41,485 nucleotides of DNA, taken from a virus. How positions within the stretch are numbered: the first letter of the stretch is position 1; every line of letters starts with the position of its first letter. Of this stretch, positions 3,883-40,277 are shown piece by piece. Location: positions 1-41,485 of the IMG/VR virus record IMGVR_UViG_3300044858_002790. One strand, given 5' to 3'. The translations under genes were made by a program, and so were the position numbers. The notes under the pieces are model-generated. The model searched no databases. It saw nothing but the letters and a program-made list of their open reading frames with translations, and was not told where the DNA came from.

Positions 3883-4175
3883 TGAAACTGACATATAAAA
3901 ACGAATGGGAAAGCGACAAGTTTTTTGTCGATGGCAACCCAATATCTGATCTTAAGAAGGTCAGGATTCTTGAAAATGAGTATGCAGTGACGTCGAGAGA
4001 AGTCAGTGTGCCATATAGCGACATGGGCCACACTTACAATGCAATATCTAAGCATTACTACATCAAAAAGAATGTATTTGGAAAGGTGTTGGAATTCGAT
4101 CTCGGCAGACTTATTGACAAAGGTATCAAAGTTTCTGCATTGAAATATACGTTGGAGGATGGACATGAGTATTAG
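3882..4175 (+). CDS. Hypothetical protein (97 aa)
   Basis: Starts at TAATG, with GAGGAAACG upstream. Beta-rich sequence (MKLTYKNEWESDKFFVDGN) that recognises an own-family SH3-like or immunoglobulin-like possibility only weakly. Its 3' end overlaps the RNA ligase start by 11 bases, implying coupled translation. No function assigned. Confidence 0.65.
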   Translation: MKLTYKNEWESDKFFVDGNPISDLKKVRILENEYAVTSREVSVPYSDMGHTYNAISKHYYIKKNVFGKVLEFDLGRLIDKGIKVSALKYTLEDGHEY

Positions 4176-5304
4176 GAAATTAGCTAGCATACAACGCATT
4201 CTTAGCATCGATCCCATTGCCGGTGCTGATGCAATCGAAGTTGCAACTGTGAATGGGTGGAAGGTTGTAATTGCCAAAAAGGATAACTTCAAAGTGGGCG
4301 ATCTTGTCATCTACTGTGAGGTCGACTCCTGGATTCCACACTTGCTCGCCCCGTTCCTCAGCAAAGGACAAGAGCCGAGGGAGTACGAAGGCATCAAAGG
4401 TGAACGGCTGCGCACTGTCAAGCTCAGGGGCCAGATTAGTCAAGGGTTGATTCTTCCGTTGCACGTCGTATGGTCGGGCGCTCATATCAACGAGAGCTAT
4501 ATTGGTGATCCACCGTGGGATTATCAAGGTGATTGGGAAAAAGATGACCACACCTTGAACGAGGTCAACATTCGTGTTAATGGTGAGTGGACTTACGGCA
4601 CGATTGAAGGGCTAGATGTCTCCGAGAGATTGGGCATCGTCAAATACGAGCCGCCGGTGTCAGCACAGTTGGCAGGTATCTCACTCGGCGCATTTCCGTC
4701 ACAAGTCCCAAAGACTGACGAGGAGCGTATCCAGAACCTTACCAATGAGTGGAATGACTTGATTGCTGCACGTTGGGAACTGACTGAAAAGCTAGAAGGC
4801 AGCTCAATGACTGTTGGACGGATCAACGGCGAGTTTATTGTCTGCTCACGGAACCTGAACCTGCGTGAGACTGAAGGTAACACTCTGTGGGCCCTTGCAC
4901 GTAGGCATGGCATTGAAGCAAAAATGATTCGTGCAGAACTTGACAACTTTGTTATGCAGGGTGAACTCATTGGTGAGGGCATTCAAGGTAACCACTACGG
5001 CATCAAAGGCCAAGAGTTCTATGTCTTTAGCATGTATGACATTGAGGCTGGCGAATACGTTTCTAGGAAACACAGGGAAATGATTGTTGAATCGATGGGA
5101 CTGCCGCATGTTCCGGTTATTGCATTTACTGCTAACCTGACCGACACTCTCGGCATTAAGACTGTTGCTGATGTGCTGAAGTTTGCTGATGGCAAGTCGT
5201 CGCTTAACCCGAAGGTGCTGCGGGAAGGTGTTGTGTTCAAGGAGATTGACGGACAGCGGCACTTTAAGGCAGTATCAAACGAATATTTGCTGAAGCATGG
5301 ATGA
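4165..5304 (+). CDS. ATP-dependent RNA ligase, DraRnl/Rnl5 type (379 aa)
   Basis: An N-terminal OB-like domain (MSIRKLASIQ to about residue 120) precedes a nucleotidyltransferase domain, the domain order of Deinococcus radiodurans DraRnl (Rnl5). The adenylation motif I KLEGSS places the catalytic lysine at K209; motif IV is EGVVFK (354-359) and motif V HFKAVS (366-371). Family members seal nicks with a 3'-OH RNA end in duplexes, acting in RNA repair. I choose ATG 4165 over 4159 because GGAGG at 4154-4158 leaves a normal six-base spacing. The window also encodes an Rnl1-type ligase, so two ligases with different substrates are likely. Confidence 0.9.
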   Translation: MSIRKLASIQRILSIDPIAGADAIEVATVNGWKVVIAKKDNFKVGDLVIYCEVDSWIPHLLAPFLSKGQEPREYEGIKGERLRTVKLRGQISQGLILPLHVVWSGAHINESYIGDPPWDYQGDWEKDDHTLNEVNIRVNGEWTYGTIEGLDVSERLGIVKYEPPVSAQLAGISLGAFPSQVPKTDEERIQNLTNEWNDLIAARWELTEKLEGSSMTVGRINGEFIVCSRNLNLRETEGNTLWALARRHGIEAKMIRAELDNFVMQGELIGEGIQGNHYGIKGQEFYVFSMYDIEAGEYVSRKHREMIVESMGLPHVPVIAFTANLTDTLGIKTVADVLKFADGKSSLNPKVLREGVVFKEIDGQRHFKAVSNEYLLKHG

Positions 5305-12284: not shown

Positions 12285-13061
12285 ATGGCACATGCATTAG
12301 AATTTCGTAAAGGTGGCATTCTCATACACCATGAGTGGGTTTATGATGATGAAAAGGGGAAAGGTCAATATGTCGAGAAAGATATAACCGACAATTGGTT
12401 TCATCGTCGTGACTTACCTTGCAAGCTAGGACCAGGCGTCACGTTAAATGATGTGTTCTTGTTTGTTGATCGTGAACCGGAGATTTGCGACATGATATTT
12501 GTCAATTCGTTCGCCAAAGCATTGTGGCAGGATTGGAAGAAGGTTTTCCATCAAACCAGGATCATGCGGCCGACGGATCACTATAGTCCAGACGACATTG
12601 AATTTTTGGAGTTGTACTGGAATCCTGAGATACACAATTGGGATGGTGTTGATGAAATCGATGGCGCAGAAAGTCCATGCTGCCATGGTTTGGGATATGA
12701 ACTGCGTGAAGATAAGTTTGAGAAGTGGCAAGATACTCCATTCTTCAACAAAGGATATCGGATACCTTGGGCAATCGACTTTGCTCCACTAATTACATTG
12801 ATCGATCTGCCTATCCTGCTGAATGAGAAGTTTGAAATCAGAGATGATTGGCGTAAGCACAAGAATGACATGAGTAACGTACCCAAACTTCTATCGTGCA
12901 ACAAGAAGTTTTCATTTGAGCAAATAATTGGTGGACTGCTCTGGGAATTGTCATTCTATGGAACTGAGGATGAAAAGACTGCAAAGTGTGACGAATTAAA
13001 TAGTATGGCGGAGGAACTAGAATTGACACAAAATACAGAAGGGAATATAATCAACAAATGA
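12285..13061 (+). CDS. Hypothetical protein (258 aa)
   Basis: Good ribosome site (TTAAGGATT) and ATG 12285. Acidic, Trp-rich sequence (MAHALEFRKGGILIHHEWVY) with no recognisable domain. The length and position in a conserved run make it a genuine gene. Its 3' end overlaps the next gene (ATGA). Confidence 0.65.
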   Translation: MAHALEFRKGGILIHHEWVYDDEKGKGQYVEKDITDNWFHRRDLPCKLGPGVTLNDVFLFVDREPEICDMIFVNSFAKALWQDWKKVFHQTRIMRPTDHYSPDDIEFLELYWNPEIHNWDGVDEIDGAESPCCHGLGYELREDKFEKWQDTPFFNKGYRIPWAIDFAPLITLIDLPILLNEKFEIRDDWRKHKNDMSNVPKLLSCNKKFSFEQIIGGLLWELSFYGTEDEKTAKCDELNSMAEELELTQNTEGNIINK

Positions 13062-28805: not shown

Positions 28806-28937
28806 ATGTGCGTACAAGTGTATTCGGGTGACGTGTTGATTGACGAACGTGAGTTCACCACAGAAGTTGCTGCATTGCAATTTGCCGATTATTGGCAGGA
28901 CGAAGGTTACAAGGTACGGATAACTGAGGTGGTATAA
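28806..28937 (+). CDS. Small hypothetical protein (43 aa)
   Basis: AGGAGACATT precedes the ATG; the TAA overlaps the ATG of the RNA ligase. Peptide MCVQVYSGDVLIDEREFTTE. Typical tiny early phage gene; no family recognised. Confidence 0.6.
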   Translation: MCVQVYSGDVLIDEREFTTEVAALQFADYWQDEGYKVRITEVV

Positions 28938-30094
28938 TGGAAGTTCAAAAATTCATTCGGGAAAAGGGTTGGCAAGCACTCAAGGACGAATTGTTCATCG
29001 AGGTGCGGGAATACGACCATGGTTTGCGTGTGCTGAACTACAGCATGATCGAGTCGCCGAAAATGCACCCGGTTGTTGCAGAATGTCGTGCGCTGAAGTT
29101 GGATACTGATGGCAATGTTGTTTCTCGTGCATTCAATCGATTCTTCAACTTCGGTGAGGCTGGCACTGAGAACTTTGATTTCTCGAACTGCACTGTGTGG
29201 GAAAAGGCTGACGGCTCGCTGTGCCCTGTGTATTTTTGCCCGCAAACCAACCAATGGGAAATCTCAACCCGTGGTACTGGTTTCGCTGAGGCTAATCATG
29301 TATTCGGTACTAAGCGTGATTGTACTTTCCGTGAGGCGATTCTTGATGCTATGCGAATGACTGAGCAAGAATTTCAAGCCTGCATGTCATCTGTTGAGTT
29401 TCACAAGTCATGCACGTATGTTATGGAATACTGCTCGCCGTTCAATCGCATTGTGACTCCGTACTCCGAGCCGCACATGGTTCTGCTTGCTGTTGTGTCG
29501 AACATCACACACATCGAAGCGAACAACGCAGGCTTGGCAGAATGGACGAAGTTGCTGTCGAGTAAGGGCATGAATATCCGTATGCCGAAAGTGTATCATG
29601 TATCTTCCGGTGATGCATTGGTTAAGCTGGCTGAGTCGCTCGACAACCTGCAAGAAGGTTTTGTGGTTGTTGATCACAATACAGGCAAGCGTGTGAAGTG
29701 CAAGTCGTCGCATTATGTTCTTGTGCATCAAATGCGTGGCAACGGTACGCCGACAATGAACAACCTGCTTGAACTGGTTGCGAAGAATGAGCAGGATGAA
29801 TTGTTGGCGTACTTCCCGGAGTACAAGGTGTTCATTGACCCTGTTGAAGATGCATTGAGACAGCTGAAACTTGAAGCGAGCCTACTTTACAATCATGTTA
29901 AAGACATAGAGTCACAAAAAGATTTCGCAATCAGAATTCTGTCAGTTGTTGATCCGTGTCTTTCTCCGATACTTTTCAAAGCTCGCAAAGATAACGTTTC
30001 AACCGAACAAGCATTCATGTCGTTGTCGTTGTCGCAGCAATGCAATTTGATTGAGAAATTCGTTGGTGGTAAATGGACGTTTAGGGAGAAGTGA
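28937..30094 (+). CDS. rnl1: T4 Rnl1-type RNA ligase (385 aa)
   Basis: WEKADGSLCPVYF places the adenylated lysine at K90; the EYCSPFNRIV segment carries motif III, LQEGFVVVD motif IV and KRVKCKSSHYVLVHQ motif V. T4 Rnl1 is 374 aa and repairs tRNAs cut in the anticodon loop by PrrC. Pnk lies 1.2 kb downstream with one small gene between, the same repair pair. Confidence 0.93.
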   Translation: MEVQKFIREKGWQALKDELFIEVREYDHGLRVLNYSMIESPKMHPVVAECRALKLDTDGNVVSRAFNRFFNFGEAGTENFDFSNCTVWEKADGSLCPVYFCPQTNQWEISTRGTGFAEANHVFGTKRDCTFREAILDAMRMTEQEFQACMSSVEFHKSCTYVMEYCSPFNRIVTPYSEPHMVLLAVVSNITHIEANNAGLAEWTKLLSSKGMNIRMPKVYHVSSGDALVKLAESLDNLQEGFVVVDHNTGKRVKCKSSHYVLVHQMRGNGTPTMNNLLELVAKNEQDELLAYFPEYKVFIDPVEDALRQLKLEASLLYNHVKDIESQKDFAIRILSVVDPCLSPILFKARKDNVSTEQAFMSLSLSQQCNLIEKFVGGKWTFREK

Positions 30095-30095
30095 A

Positions 30096-30260
30096 ATGAC
30101 ATTAGACAAGTTGATTGATGAGGTCGGCCTCATTGAACTAACCGATGCTGACATTGAAGAAATGCAAGCACGAATAAATGAAGCAGACGAAATCTTCGCA
30201 GCGGAAGCAGAAGCAAAGCGAATAACAATTGAGTGGCTTAACTACGAATATACGGTGTAA
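30096..30260 (+). CDS. Small acidic protein (54 aa)
   Basis: AGGGAGAAGTGAA precedes ATG 30096, directly after the ligase stop. Glu/Ala/Asp-rich helix (DADIEEMQARINEADEIFAA). No family recognised; located between rnl1 and pnk, so it may belong to the repair unit. Confidence 0.6.
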   Translation: MTLDKLIDEVGLIELTDADIEEMQARINEADEIFAAEAEAKRITIEWLNYEYTV

Positions 30261-30264
30261 AATA

Positions 30265-31146
30265 ATGAAAGCAATTATAACTGTTGGTGTGTCTGCATCT
30301 GGAAAGACTACATGGGCGAAAGCACAGAGTGGGTTTGTTGTCATTTCTCGTAATGACATTCGCCGTGAAATTCTTGAAGTTCGCCACAACCGCCAACTTC
30401 GCCCAGGTGAACTTTGGAAGTTGTGGAAGTGGAAAGATGAGAACTTGGTAACTGCAAAAGTTGATACTGATATTGCGTTCTTAGCCGATCGTGGTCAAGA
30501 TATCATTGTTGCTGATACCAATTTGAATACTAAGCATCGTGATGCTTTGGCTTTGAAGTTGAAGTGGTATGGGTATGAGGTCGAGTACAAGCATTTCACT
30601 GTGACGTTCGAGGAAGCAATTCGGCGTGATGCTGGCCGAGCTGATGGTGTTGGTCATTCTGTCATTTGGAAGCAGTTCAAGCAATGGTACGATGCTATGG
30701 GTGGTACTAAGTATGTGCCTGACACATCTTTGCCGAAAGCAGTTATCTTCGACGTTGATGGTACGCTTGCTAAGATGAATGGTCGTGGCCCGTTTGATTG
30801 GCACCGTGTCGATGAAGATGACGTTCGTGAAGAAATCGCTGTCATGTTTCAAGGTTTCAAGGCAGCAGGTTACAAGATGATTGTTTTGTCTGGTCGTGAT
30901 TCTGTTTGTTTCGACAAAACCAGCAATTGGTTGGCCGACAACGAAATCTTCTATGACGAGATGTTCATGCGTGAAGAAGGTGACATGCGGAAAGACAACA
31001 TCATCAAGGAAGAGTTGTTCTCTGAGCATATCGCCCATAAGTACAACGTGAAGATGGTTGTTGATGACCGCCCGCAAGTTGTGCGTCAATGGCAATTGAT
31101 GGGTCTGCCTGTTGCTGCTGTTGCGAACCAGTATGAAGAATTCTGA
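30265..31146 (+). CDS. pnk: Polynucleotide 5'-kinase/3'-phosphatase (293 aa)
   Basis: P-loop GVSASGKTT at 8-16 (kinase) and HAD nucleophile motif IFDVDGTLAK with D163 and D165 (phosphatase) match T4 Pnk (301 aa) in order and length. It restores 5'-phosphate and removes cyclic or 3'-phosphates at broken tRNA ends before Rnl1 seals them. Start at ATG 30265; the longer GTG 30229 frame is not needed. The next gene overlaps its end. Confidence 0.93.
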   Translation: MKAIITVGVSASGKTTWAKAQSGFVVISRNDIRREILEVRHNRQLRPGELWKLWKWKDENLVTAKVDTDIAFLADRGQDIIVADTNLNTKHRDALALKLKWYGYEVEYKHFTVTFEEAIRRDAGRADGVGHSVIWKQFKQWYDAMGGTKYVPDTSLPKAVIFDVDGTLAKMNGRGPFDWHRVDEDDVREEIAVMFQGFKAAGYKMIVLSGRDSVCFDKTSNWLADNEIFYDEMFMREEGDMRKDNIIKEELFSEHIAHKYNVKMVVDDRPQVVRQWQLMGLPVAAVANQYEEF

Positions 31147-34369: not shown

Positions 34370-34560
34370 AAACATGCAAATGTGGAGAGTTCCCGAAGGG
34401 GATGACATCTGGAAAGACAGATGGCAGTGTGGAAAGACATACTGAATTTTGTGGTGGCAAAGAAATCATATGACTGACGGAAAGACGTCTATAGCGATAA
34501 CGATCGGAAACCCCATCCTGACAAAAATATTTTTGAAAAAGTGCAAGATTTGAGTGAAGT
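34370..34560 (+). ncRNA. Candidate small RNA with three repeated GAAAGA-loop hairpins
   Basis: No strong ORF. Three hairpins share the hexaloop GAAAGA closed by a G-C pair: 34406-34423 (6 bp stem), 34425-34444 (7 bp) and 34476-34489 (4 bp). Each reads GGAAAGAC across the loop. Repeated GGA-containing loops recall CsrA/RsmA-sequestering RNAs, but the identical hexaloop could bind another protein. A 23-codon ATG frame at 34374 lies within and is probably not real. Confidence 0.55.
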
Positions 34561-34575
34561 AGGCATATATAATAC

Positions 34576-34704
34576 ATGAACAACGAAAGGGCAATGATGC
34601 TACAGCAACTAAAATTATCGATATCAACCTCACAAGAGCATAATGCACTCGTGTGGTTTCCTATTGGTACATCATATGCCAACCGCGGAGATTGCACATC
34701 GTAG
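34576..34704 (+). CDS. Possible small protein (42 aa), weak
   Basis: ATG at 34576 three bases after a TATAAT at 34568; internal ATG at 34594 with GAAAGGG is an alternative. Peptide MNNERAMMLQQLKLSIST. Composition is plausible but there is no family evidence, and the following terminator would end the unit. Confidence 0.3.
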   Translation: MNNERAMMLQQLKLSISTSQEHNALVWFPIGTSYANRGDCTS

Positions 34705-34734
34705 GGCCCTAACAGAATTATCGCATCAACCAGG

Positions 34735-34763
34735 GCCCGATGAACACAAATCATCGGGCTTTT
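34735..34763 (+). terminator. Rho-independent terminator
   Basis: Stem GCCCGATG/CATCGGGC (8 bp), loop of nine bases, then TTTT. It separates the upstream RNA region from the ArfA-like gene promoter. Confidence 0.85.
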
Positions 34764-34780
34764 AACTAATAAATCAAGGA

Positions 34781-34975: not shown

Positions 34976-35017
34976 GTTACAGATTCGATTGACAGAAAAA
35001 GAAGTTTCGAATATAAT
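34976..35017 (+). promoter_or_regulatory. Consensus sigma70 promoter of the RNA/tRNA region
   Basis: GTTAC at 34976-34980, -35 TTGACA (34989-34994), 17-nt spacer, -10 TATAAT (35012-35017): both hexamers are perfect. Shortly downstream, AAGGAAATTAATC precedes a six-codon frame (MKWHRM) at 35054-35074. Confidence 0.92.
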
Positions 35018-35508
35018 GTGTTTTCAATGTTGCAAATGAGAAGGAAATTAATCATGAAGTGGCATCGAATGTAAGGATGGTCAAGTCGGGATTCGTCGGA
35101 CCGTACATCAGAATCCCCGGTTTATGGAGCTCGTAACATAAACTGCTAGGGTAATGTCAGAAGTTCCAGGACATAGCGAGTGTAGGACCTGATTGGCAAC
35201 GTGGGCCAGTGATTGTCAGGTTAAATAAAAATCAGAACGGGCGTGCTGTGGGATGGAGTATCTAATGTGATACGAAAAAACCAGCATTAGGTCTCGGGAG
35301 AAATGCCTGAGACCACATTTTTAAGTGCATTCTGTGTACTTAAAAATGTAAATTTGTCGGAAACACATCTTGGATTCGTCGGGAGACAGTAACTGAGATG
35401 TGCGGATAAGATAGTAGCGGGCGGTACCCGAGCGTGCCGAAAACGCCATGAGGGGCAAAATACCCAAAGTGGAGTACGTGTTCCTGGGAATTCAGACAAT
35501 TAAATTAT
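35018..35508 (+). ncRNA. Structured leader region of the tRNA transcript, no ORF
   Basis: About 490 bases. Strong hairpins: 35290-35314 (GGTCTCGGG with CCTGAGACC, 9 bp) and 35315-35349 (12 perfect pairs, ACATTTTTAAGT with ACTTAAAAATGT). GATTCGTCGG occurs twice (about 35090 and 35373). No tRNA found here. May be part of a larger structured RNA with 35840-37355. Confidence 0.55.
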
Positions 35509-35595
35509 GCTGTTATAGACCGATATGGATACGGGGCAGTCTGTAAAACTGTCGCCCTCTGGGCCAGCTAGGTTCGATTCCTAGTAGCAGCACCA
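35509..35595 (+). tRNA. tRNA-Tyr (GTA)
   Basis: Class II tRNA with long variable arm. Acceptor GCTGTTA/TAGCAGC (one wobble), anticodon loop CTGTAAA, T-arm CTAGG-TTCGATT-CCTAG, ends ACCA. Confidence 0.92.
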
Positions 35596-35710
35596 AGTTT
35601 GAGGTTGTTTAGTGGCGTCGCTAAACGTAGCTAGGCAATTTGTTGTTGATGTATGGCTGCATACTGCTGCTGAATCTGGAGGAAGATGTTAGCGCATTGG
35701 GTACTACCGA

Positions 35711-35748
35711 TAAGTGGCGGAAGGTAAGGTTCGAGTCCTTTACACTTA
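35711..35748 (+). other. tRNA minihelix-like element
   Basis: TAAGTG (35711-35716) pairs perfectly with CACTTA (35743-35748), and AAGG-TTCGAGT-CCTT (35726-35740) forms a T-arm just inside. D and anticodon arms are missing and there is no CCA. Remnant tRNA or structural mimic. Confidence 0.5.
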
Positions 35749-35763
35749 ACTCAATTAAACAAC

Positions 35764-35839
35764 GGGGCGCCATGTACCAAGCGGGCGAGGAGCACTTGCA
35801 ATGCACCTGTGTAGGGTTGAATTCCCTAGCGTTCCACCA
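35764..35839 (+). tRNA. tRNA-Ala (TGC) with degenerate D-arm
   Basis: Standard 76-nt numbering: acceptor GGGGCGC/GCGTTCC (wobbles), anticodon loop CTTGCAA, T-arm TAGGG-TTGAATT-CCCTA, ends ACCA. The D-stem positions do not pair, and the T-loop has G where C56 is normal. Either an atypical functional tRNA or a decaying one. Confidence 0.7.
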
Positions 35840-37355
35840 AAACTCGGGGTTTATGGGTTACATCAACATTCTGCACTGGCCAGGCGAGCATGCCTGGGTT
35901 CGAAACCAGAGTGTGAGCGTAAGATATGTTGGTGGAGGTTCGATTCCTCGGCCTCGTTTCAAATAAGTCAAAGCGTTCCCCAAAACAAGGAACTCAATGA
36001 TTAATGTCAAGCAGTGCCCGCAACCTGTTGCTGCCGGGGAAATGAGACGGGAATAACACTTAACTAGTATGCCTAGCACGACAGCGCCAAATTTAAGAAC
36101 AGTTAGGGGTGACGAGTATCGAAACCCTTTGACAGAGAGGAGTGTCATAAAAAGCCCCTCGAAAATTGTATCATTAGCTCACAAGCAACCACAGGACTTG
36201 TGTTAAAAAGATGTGGAGTCAGGGACGAATTAAACTAAGTCCAGATATTACTGACAGTAGATCGCTAATGGTTCTTATTACTAGCCGGTCAGTCTAGTTT
36301 ACTGATACATCACATGACTCTACGCCTAAGACATACAGCTGGGTCGGCGCAATGTGATATACTCAACTGAAAGTGCCTAGGTTGAGCCCTATTCGTATCA
36401 ACCTGAATCATGGCAGGTATAGCCCATGGACGGTAGCAGAATCCGAGTGTAACCAGAACGCAAGGTTGCGGCGTGAATGAGCCTCAGGGACTAACCAATG
36501 AAGGCAAGGAATCTGCAGAGCAGAAATGCTTATTGAGTGTAGGAGGGTTTATTTGCTCCCGCCCATCAGTGCTTGATGGAGATATGCAAAAGTAAGTCGC
36601 TTTACTGGACGCTATGTGTCGGTGATGAATTCCGACTTAACGACTGTGCGGTAATCCCGTGGCTGGAGTAACTGTGCAGAGACGCTCGACCGAGCAGATT
36701 CGTGATAGAAATGACTTAGCCAGTCGGTCCTGATGCAAACTCAGGGGTGTCCAGTAAAGTGATTTAAATGTAGTTGTATTTTGGCTATTGCGGTAACAAT
36801 AGCCAAAATACAATTTGTAGTAAGAGCCGACGTGCAGGGCTTATAAAATATTCGCACGCCAGATTTGTAGTTGAAAGAGTTTATGGGGGCTTGACCTCAT
36901 TACAATAAGTGCAGTGATGCACCCAAAGCAAGGATTCTTACATACTTGCGCCAGAAACGGTTGATTCAAGCAAGCATTGACCTCCACGGTGACGTGGCGT
37001 TATCTGATAAGACCGGGTGACGTAAACAGGAAAGATGTGTTGTGGAAATAACGTTTGCTTAAACGCCTGACCCGCAAGGGAAGGGGAACGTTAGCAGATG
37101 GAGAGTAACAGGTGGTGCTGACCTCACAACAAAACCAACATCTCAGTGTGTAAGGGAAAATGTAGTGCGATTTGTCTGAGCCTTCGCAAGCAAGGGCTGT
37201 CGTGCAATGTTAGTGAACCGAGGGCGCTATATCAAATTGGCGTACAAGGATCGCAAAACATGGTTAAGTACCCGGGAGGGGAAAGACATGAGTCGAAGCG
37301 TATTGTGTATCTAACAAGGTATGCAGCGTTTGAGGATGCTCGACTCGGTAAGTTC
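35840..37355 (+). ncRNA. Large structured non-coding RNA candidate(s) inside the tRNA array
   Basis: 1.5 kb with no convincing ORF or recognisable tRNA but many stems: 35861-35869 with 35926-35934 (9 bp), 36213-36221 with 36315-36323 (9 bp), 36600-36610 with 36749-36759 (11 perfect pairs enclosing a 138-nt domain), the 17-bp hairpin 36774-36813, and GNRA hairpins at 36909-36922 and 36984-36997 (GTGA) and 37071-37080 (GCAA). Ornate large RNAs such as GOLLD and ROOL are known beside phage tRNA genes; I cannot say whether this belongs to them or is a new class. Confidence 0.6.
36774..36813 (+). repeat. 17-bp perfect inverted repeat (hairpin, loop CGGTAA)
   Basis: 36774-36790 and 36797-36813 are exact complements. 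No T-run follows, so it is more likely an RNA structural element or RNase III site than a terminator. Confidence 0.9.
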
Positions 37356-37430
37356 ACTAAAGTTGGCCTAAGGCAGGCCATCTCCCTTTCTAGGAGAAAG
37401 CAGTTGGTTCGATTCCAACCTTTTGTACCA
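37356..37430 (+). tRNA. tRNA-Glu (TTC)
   Basis: Acceptor ACTAAAG/CTTTTGT with one T:T mismatch, D-stem GGCC/GGCC, anticodon arm TCTCC-CTTTCTA-GGAGA, T-arm GTTGG-TTCGATT-CCAAC, ends ACCA. 75 nt. Confidence 0.88.
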
Positions 37431-37844
37431 TAAAATGCAAAGCCATCCTCGGTTTAGTGTGAAAGACATCTAATGCTTCAGCCGCAAGGTAATGAAGCCT
37501 TACAATGCTCGCAAGGCGGAGTAAGTTTGTGTCAAGAAGTTCATAGGGCGTCGAAACCCGAACAGCTCGCAAGGCTGGTGGATGAAAAGATACAGAGTAA
37601 TACTAAACGACGTGCCTACTGCCTGGCACTCAAAAACGGCGATGTTGCTGAACTACCGCATGACCCCTGGAAACATGCATGTGGTGGAAGTCGGAAGAAA
37701 AGTCCTCGCAAGGGATTCAATAATATCCGAGGGTTCAGTACTGTTGGTGTATTCTCAGCCTACAGATGCTTTACACAAACACACTGGAATGGGGGACTTG
37801 ATCCGCCCCGCCAATTAAGGCGCTAGTGTGTTGCTGTAAAGTAT
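37431..37844 (+). ncRNA. Structured spacer RNA with repeated CTCGCAAGG hairpins
   Basis: CTCGCAAGG occurs at 37508-37516, 37566-37574 and 37705-37713, with a CCGCAAGG relative at 37482. Enclosing stems include GCTTCA/TGAAGC (37475/37493), CTTAC/GTAAG (37499/37521), and CTTTAC plus ACACACT (37769-37785) with AGTGTGT plus GTAAAG (37825-37841), which ends three bases before tRNA-Asp. No convincing ORF. Confidence 0.6.
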
Positions 37845-39594: not shown

Positions 39595-39629
39595 CGGCGT
39601 GTAGCGCAGTCTGGTAGCGCATCTGCTTT
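39595..39629 (+). pseudogene. 5' half of a split tRNA-Pro
   Basis: CGGCGTG, T-A, D-arm GCGC-AGTCTGGTA-GCGC and the 5' strand TCTGC of the anticodon stem, stopping at the TTT of the anticodon loop. The missing acceptor partner TACGCCG-ACCA is at 40369-40379. Confidence 0.8.
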
Positions 39630-39630
39630 A

Positions 39631-39638
39631 TATAAATA
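39631..39638 (+). promoter_or_regulatory. T4-late-type box TATAAATA for the second homing endonuclease
   Basis: Lies within the insertion, two bases after the tRNA break, and is followed by ATAAGGAGGTTTT and the ATG at 39657. Same box and ribosome site as the endonuclease at 2137. Confidence 0.6.
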
Positions 39639-39656
39639 ATAGCATAAGGAGGTTTT

Positions 39657-40277
39657 ATGCTATTATGTAGATTTTGCGATAAAGAATGTAAGAGCGCCAA
39701 CTCATTAAGAAACCATGAAAGGTTATGTAAAAGTAATCCTGACAAGCAAGAGAGCGGATTCAAGAAATACAACGAGACAGGGCTCAGATGGAATTCGGGA
39801 CTGACTAAAGAAACGGACGACAGAGTCTTACAGAATTCAATAAAGACCTCTGAGGCATTGAAAAAGAAATTTGCTTCTGGAGTTAAGCTATATGCTCATA
39901 CAGATGAGTATTGGACACCCGAGAGGCGGAAAGAGAAGTCGGATTGGAGAAAGCAACTTCATATCGATCATCCAGAAATGCACCCAAATAGAAAGTTAGC
40001 TGGGAATCGGCATAAGATGACATACCCGGAAAGAGTTGCATACGACCACCTTACTAAATCTGGTGTTATATTTGAACATCAAAAAAAGGTTTTGAAATAC
40101 TTTCCTGATTTTGTGATTGGCAATATAATCATAGAAATTGATGGGGAAAATTGGCATAATGAGGAAGAAGACAGAATTCGTGACGAAGAAATATCTAAAG
40201 AAGGGTATACTGTCTACCGAATTAAGTCGAAAGAACGTATAGAACAAAGAATTAACGAATTACTCCGATTAGTGTAG
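39657..40277 (+). CDS. Homing endonuclease: zinc finger plus Vsr/PD-(D/E)XK-like nuclease (206 aa)
   Basis: N-terminal C2HC finger (C4, C7, H20, C24 in LLCRFCDKECKSANSLRNH...C). The C-terminal third has ERVAYDHLTKSGVIFEHQKK, then YFPDFVIGNIIIEIDGENWH, a Vsr/DUF559-like PD...ExD core. Such fusions are free-standing phage homing nucleases. It is inserted in a tRNA-Pro. Its last five codons including the stop overlap the next tRNA. Strong AAGGAGG site. Confidence 0.85.
   Translation: MLLCRFCDKECKSANSLRNHERLCKSNPDKQESGFKKYNETGLRWNSGLTKETDDRVLQNSIKTSEALKKKFASGVKLYAHTDEYWTPERRKEKSDWRKQLHIDHPEMHPNRKLAGNRHKMTYPERVAYDHLTKSGVIFEHQKKVLKYFPDFVIGNIIIEIDGENWHNEEEDRIRDEEISKEGYTVYRIKSKERIEQRINELLRLV

Follow-up and report, generated by a model that had tools for sequence, protein, structure and literature searches.

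A GOLLD RNA flanked by two unclassified structured RNAs in the tRNA array of a phage

A non-coding region within a tRNA array

Nearly 3 kb of DNA between a promoter and a tRNA-Asp gene in a viral tRNA array (positions 35018-37844) had been read as almost devoid of coding potential yet rich in complementary segments. This raises the question of whether the region encodes one giant RNA, of the GOLLD or ROOL type or of a new class, or several RNAs. The window analysed, 41,485 nucleotides in length, covers positions 1-41,485 of the virus record IMGVR_UViG_3300044858_002790, and 16 tRNAs were called in it by ARAGORN. By sequence comparison, the locus is a GOLLD RNA flanked by two unclassified structured RNAs, here termed elements B and D, found in three phage lineages. 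The region is not the single RNA of about 3 kb suggested by the sequence-only reading; it consists of several RNAs together with a tRNA-Tyr gene, decayed tRNAs and a tRNA-like element that this reading had not noted. The choice it offered between a member of a known family and a new class resolves as both, with a GOLLD member accompanied by the unclassified B and D.

The region is non-coding and its folding is far above chance. The two open reading frames tested, of 117 amino acids (37473-37826) and 95 amino acids (37146-37433), are both broken by frameshifts and stops in a relative of 87% identity, in agreement with the near-absence of coding potential proposed earlier. The frequent long stems of that reading were also confirmed, with perfect stems of 17 bp (36774-36790/36797-36813), 12 bp (35315-35326/35338-35349) and 11 bp (36600-36610/36749-36759), compared to a longest perfect stem of 14 bp across 200 dinucleotide shuffles of the region. 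Stems of at least 9 bp numbered six against an expectation of 2.7 ± 1.7 from dinucleotide shuffles, so some of those of 9-10 bp are probably due to chance. RNAfold gave z-scores of -4.2 for 35018-35508 and -3.6 for 36276-36815, and none of 100 shuffles was equally stable in either case. Comparative folding against column shuffles gave z-scores of -5.3 for D, -5.6 for the GOLLD 5' domain and -7.1 for the GOLLD 3' domain; the two coding controls scored -1.9 and -0.9. The proposed structures withstood an examination of compensatory changes in relatives for GOLLD, D and B alike.

All elements of the cluster lie on the plus strand. The promoter (TTGACA-17-TATAAT, 34989-35017) matches the sigma-70 consensus at 12 of 12 positions, as had been noticed from the sequence, is kept in the related locus L171 and is likely the start of the cluster transcript. 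Element B (35018-35508, about 490 nt) extends from the promoter to tRNA-Tyr (gta, 35509-35595), which was called by ARAGORN and scored 35.7 bits with the Rfam tRNA model. Decayed tRNAs occupy 35596-36000, recognised by T-arm motifs in the sequence and by alignment with L171; alignment and tRNA calls identify one of them (about 35768-35841) as the counterpart of an intact tRNA-Ala in L171 and L179. Element D (36276-36770, about 490 nt) follows, and the 17-bp perfect hairpin (36774-36813) stands in the gap between D and GOLLD. This hairpin is bare in the window; in L171 a tRNA-like insert (12381-12450) sits at the tip of the hairpin between D and GOLLD, and in L190, a 424-kb relative, the equivalent place immediately 5' of the GOLLD 5' domain has a tRNA-like element (2732-2819) at the tip of a long helix. 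The anticodons of the L190 and L171 elements are odd (caca and cta, respectively).

Upstream of the promoter, a non-coding block (34381-34766) has about 72% identity in L171 and ends in a terminator-like hairpin, the stem of which (34732-34743/34751-34762) shows three double compensatory changes. This block was considered as a further structured RNA, element A, with a low folding energy (z-score -4.4), but its seven compensatory pairs compare with 7.2 expected and it is not counted among the structured RNAs here.

A GOLLD RNA upstream of tRNA-Asp

The suggestion that the region might be GOLLD was borne out for its 3' third (about 36.88-37.84 kb) and failed for B and D. The Rfam model RF02032, which spans the 3' part of GOLLD only, matched completely (model positions 1-416) at 37290-37761 with 187.8 bits (E 1.7e-51; gathering score 150). 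An HMM built from 36871-37300 of the window and L142 picked up the homologous 5' regions of further GOLLD loci, including L143 (E 1.3e-47), L153 and L150, and places the start near 36880. Double compensatory changes occur in 53 of the 106 predicted pairs of this 5' domain (36871-37289) in an alignment of five sequences. A block at 36876-37840 has 87% identity to L010/L142 and takes in the 3' terminal hairpin region (37762-37840; pairs 37771-37775/37835-37839 and 37778-37787/37823-37832), just 5' of tRNA-Asp. Given the RF02032 match, the homologous and covarying 5' domain and the conserved block, comparative evidence identifies 36.88-37.84 kb as a GOLLD RNA about 0.95 kb long. It has the traits of the family: a conserved 3' domain, a variable 5' domain upstream, and a phage origin near tRNA genes. 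The other family proposed, ROOL, received no support, as the Rfam search gave no ROOL match in the region even at E ≤ 5.

The GOLLD 3'-end motif was found at 110 IMG/VR loci. From these, 100 records were scanned with RF02032; 74 matched at E ≤ 0.001, 71 of them above the cut-off. A further GOLLD-like match, weak at 40 bits, lies at L191 1365-1719 on a 424-kb contig (G110); the full GOLLD of that contig is about 48 kb away.

Two structured RNAs without an Rfam family

Immediately 5' of GOLLD, element D aligns piecewise with L171 and L179-L181 at 73-86% identity. Its core has 81-86% identity over three lineages, and the mean column identity of the core alignment is 96%. Of the 145 pairs in the consensus fold, 17 show double changes; on window columns, 16 double-changed pairs were counted against 4.7 ± 1.5 in 100 shuffles (maximum 8), with an energy z-score of -5.3. 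A 19-bp helix (36594-36613/36746-36765) carries four double changes between the window and L171, and is partly broken in L179. Searches with D from the window, L171 and L179 gave no relevant Rfam match at E ≤ 5, and D matched neither RF02032 nor the GOLLD 5' domain. One D loop holds a small basic open reading frame of 43 amino acids in L171 (11746-11877) and 42 amino acids at the matching place in L179, ending GRYCRFNYG-G-; it has no PHROGs match and is cleanly missing from the window (at about 36399).

Element B is partly conserved in L171 and L179. Its halves gave comparative z-scores of -4.9 and -4.6, with 14 double-changed pairs against 7.0 ± 2.1 in shuffles for one half and seven against 3.3 ± 1.4 for the other. 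In both halves the highest count among the shuffles attains the observed one, so the support for B is weaker than that for D. Aligned with L171 alone, B has 30 double-changed pairs, compared to 18.8 ± 3.5 and a maximum of 27 in shuffles. The Rfam search with B was without match. Across the three lineages on which both elements rest, covariation thus identifies structured RNAs without an Rfam family, with good support for D and moderate support for B.

Three different 18-mers from D each retrieved the identical four viral contigs from IMG/VR, and a 16-mer scan of a genome collection gave seven matches, none a D homologue by nhmmer. BLASTN of 35018-37844 against phage records found no match, and the neighbouring proteins (294 and 63 amino acids) used as queries found no related loci. 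D seems to be narrowly distributed, with the reservation that more distant relatives escape exact probes.

The position of D invites the view that, in the present lineage, it is a 5' extension of GOLLD and the two form a single RNA of about 1.56 kb: D adjoins GOLLD on the same strand, neither a promoter nor a terminator was found between them, and the adjacency is held in the window and in L171/L142. Against this, D survives in L179-L181, where the GOLLD 5' domain is cut to about 95 nt before tRNA-Asp and where no GOLLD match was found elsewhere on the contigs, which are possibly fragments; conversely, L143, L153 and L190 have GOLLD without D. Since each occurs without the other in full, D is best read, from its distribution, as a separate RNA, and we regard the extension as unlikely. 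Still less credible is that B and D are decaying debris of the tRNA array, or a self-splicing intron, instead of functional structured RNAs. Decayed tRNAs do lie between B and D, and small basic reading frames such as that in the D loop of L171 and L179 are frequent in mobile introns, but debris is hard to reconcile with the identity of the D core over three lineages and with compensatory changes well above those of shuffles, and at E ≤ 5 the Rfam group I and group II intron models matched none of the three loci (window, L171 and L179).

A tRNA shape in the GOLLD linker

The tRNA-like module at 37356-37430 was called by ARAGORN (anticodon ttc; Rfam tRNA 35.7 bits). In the RF02032 alignment it occupies the unstructured linker, and relatives carry such modules at the equivalent position. 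tRNAs in the GOLLD linker have been published (PMC12286853, discussion), so that neither GOLLD nor a tRNA in its linker is new; the addition made here is quantitative evidence, from sequence comparison, that most of the linker modules are something other than decoding tRNAs. The viral loci contain 18 distinct linker elements in 14 sequence groups. A CCA end is encoded in two of these groups, compared to 153 of 220 distinct tRNAs elsewhere in the same loci (Fisher p 6e-5), and anticodons that are non-decoding in bacteria (A34, amber or a short loop) were found in four groups against eight of the 220 other tRNAs (p 0.003). The modules of the window and L142 differ in anticodon (ttc and att), while their D and anticodon stems are preserved via compensatory change. 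Retention of the fold is a biased measure, as ARAGORN calls intact folds only; this bias weighs less on the contrasts in CCA and anticodon, since the same program called the control tRNAs. The scarcity of encoded CCA ends and the surplus of non-decoding anticodons suggest that the linker module family is a structural tRNA mimic. The window's own module is a counterpoint, as its anticodon is still normal and its CCA is encoded.

These last features, and the real tRNAs all around, would fit an ordinary tRNA gene that arrived by turnover of the tRNA array and is excised by RNase P and 3' enzymes to serve translation, leaving GOLLD in two pieces. We consider this less likely, as the copies in relatives are mostly without CCA and many of their anticodons could not be used, and the window copy has U37 and six of seven acceptor pairs. 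The tRNA within mycobacterial GOLLD was judged to be a pseudo-tRNA, with expression undetected (PMC6582537).

Predicted function

Traits of the GOLLD family are a 14-chain cage, intermolecular kissing loops and expression during phage lysis; to our knowledge, GOLLD is one of a handful of cages that RNA builds without protein, and no function has been assigned to it. The GOLLD of env-38 is 833 nt long with its 5' domain at 1-420, and cryo-EM placed its linker in the interior of the nanocage (PMC12286853). By homology with env-38, the GOLLD RNA of the window most likely assembles into a 14-chain cage, in which the 5' domain would form the cap and the 3' domain the ring. The tRNA-shaped module of the linker would then sit inside, with up to 14 per particle. 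The tRNA/RNA cluster is probably read from the promoter at 34989.

Since such modules retain the fold but, for the most part, no longer the features of decoding and maturation, their likeliest role is that of a bait or tether for a host or phage tRNA-binding factor, rather than a translating tRNA; an anticodon nuclease, a tRNA-modifying enzyme and the ribosome are candidates. Phage T4 uses enzymes of the Pnkp and RNA-ligase type to mend tRNAs cut by anticodon nucleases. The window encodes a similar RNA repair set, with a Pnkp-type kinase-phosphatase (30229-31146), an RNA_lig_T4_1 ligase (28937-30094) and a second RNA ligase (4159-5304), which makes a tRNA-handling target plausible but nothing firmer. 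B and D may be further ornate phage RNAs or processing leaders as a working guess. Taken together, a GOLLD cage with the linker module as bait or tether, and with B and D as independent RNAs of the same cluster, is the account we consider reasonably probable. Its bolder form, in which D and B would be two new large phage RNA classes on one transcript with GOLLD, and the linker module a caged, non-decoding tRNA mimic that captures a tRNA-binding factor, is less likely than not.

The locus resembles known GOLLD RNAs (RF02032; env-38, PMC12286853) in its complete 3'-domain match, its homologous 5' domain, its setting in a phage tRNA array and its linker tRNA, reported for some members. It differs from env-38 in length, about 0.95 kb compared to 833 nt, a difference largely accounted for by the linker tRNA module, and in the unrelated elements D and B that come before GOLLD. 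It shares with mycobacterial GOLLD (PMC6582537) a tRNA cluster and a tRNA-like element within GOLLD, but belongs to another phage lineage. ROOL is similar as a large ornate cage RNA near phage tRNAs (PMC12286853), but neither its sequence nor its structure was matched here at E ≤ 5. The analysis adds two unclassified structured RNAs, D and B, recognised by comparing three phage lineages; they suggest that the tRNA arrays of large phages hold more structured RNAs than Rfam lists. A linker that repeatedly carries tRNA-shaped modules, mostly unfit as ordinary tRNAs, hints at what the cage may contain, an idea that is testable.

Elsewhere in the tRNA array of the window is a gene for a DUF559/Vsr-like endonuclease (39657-40277). 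What resembles, by eye, the 5' part of a cut tRNA lies upstream of this gene, within 39598-40277.
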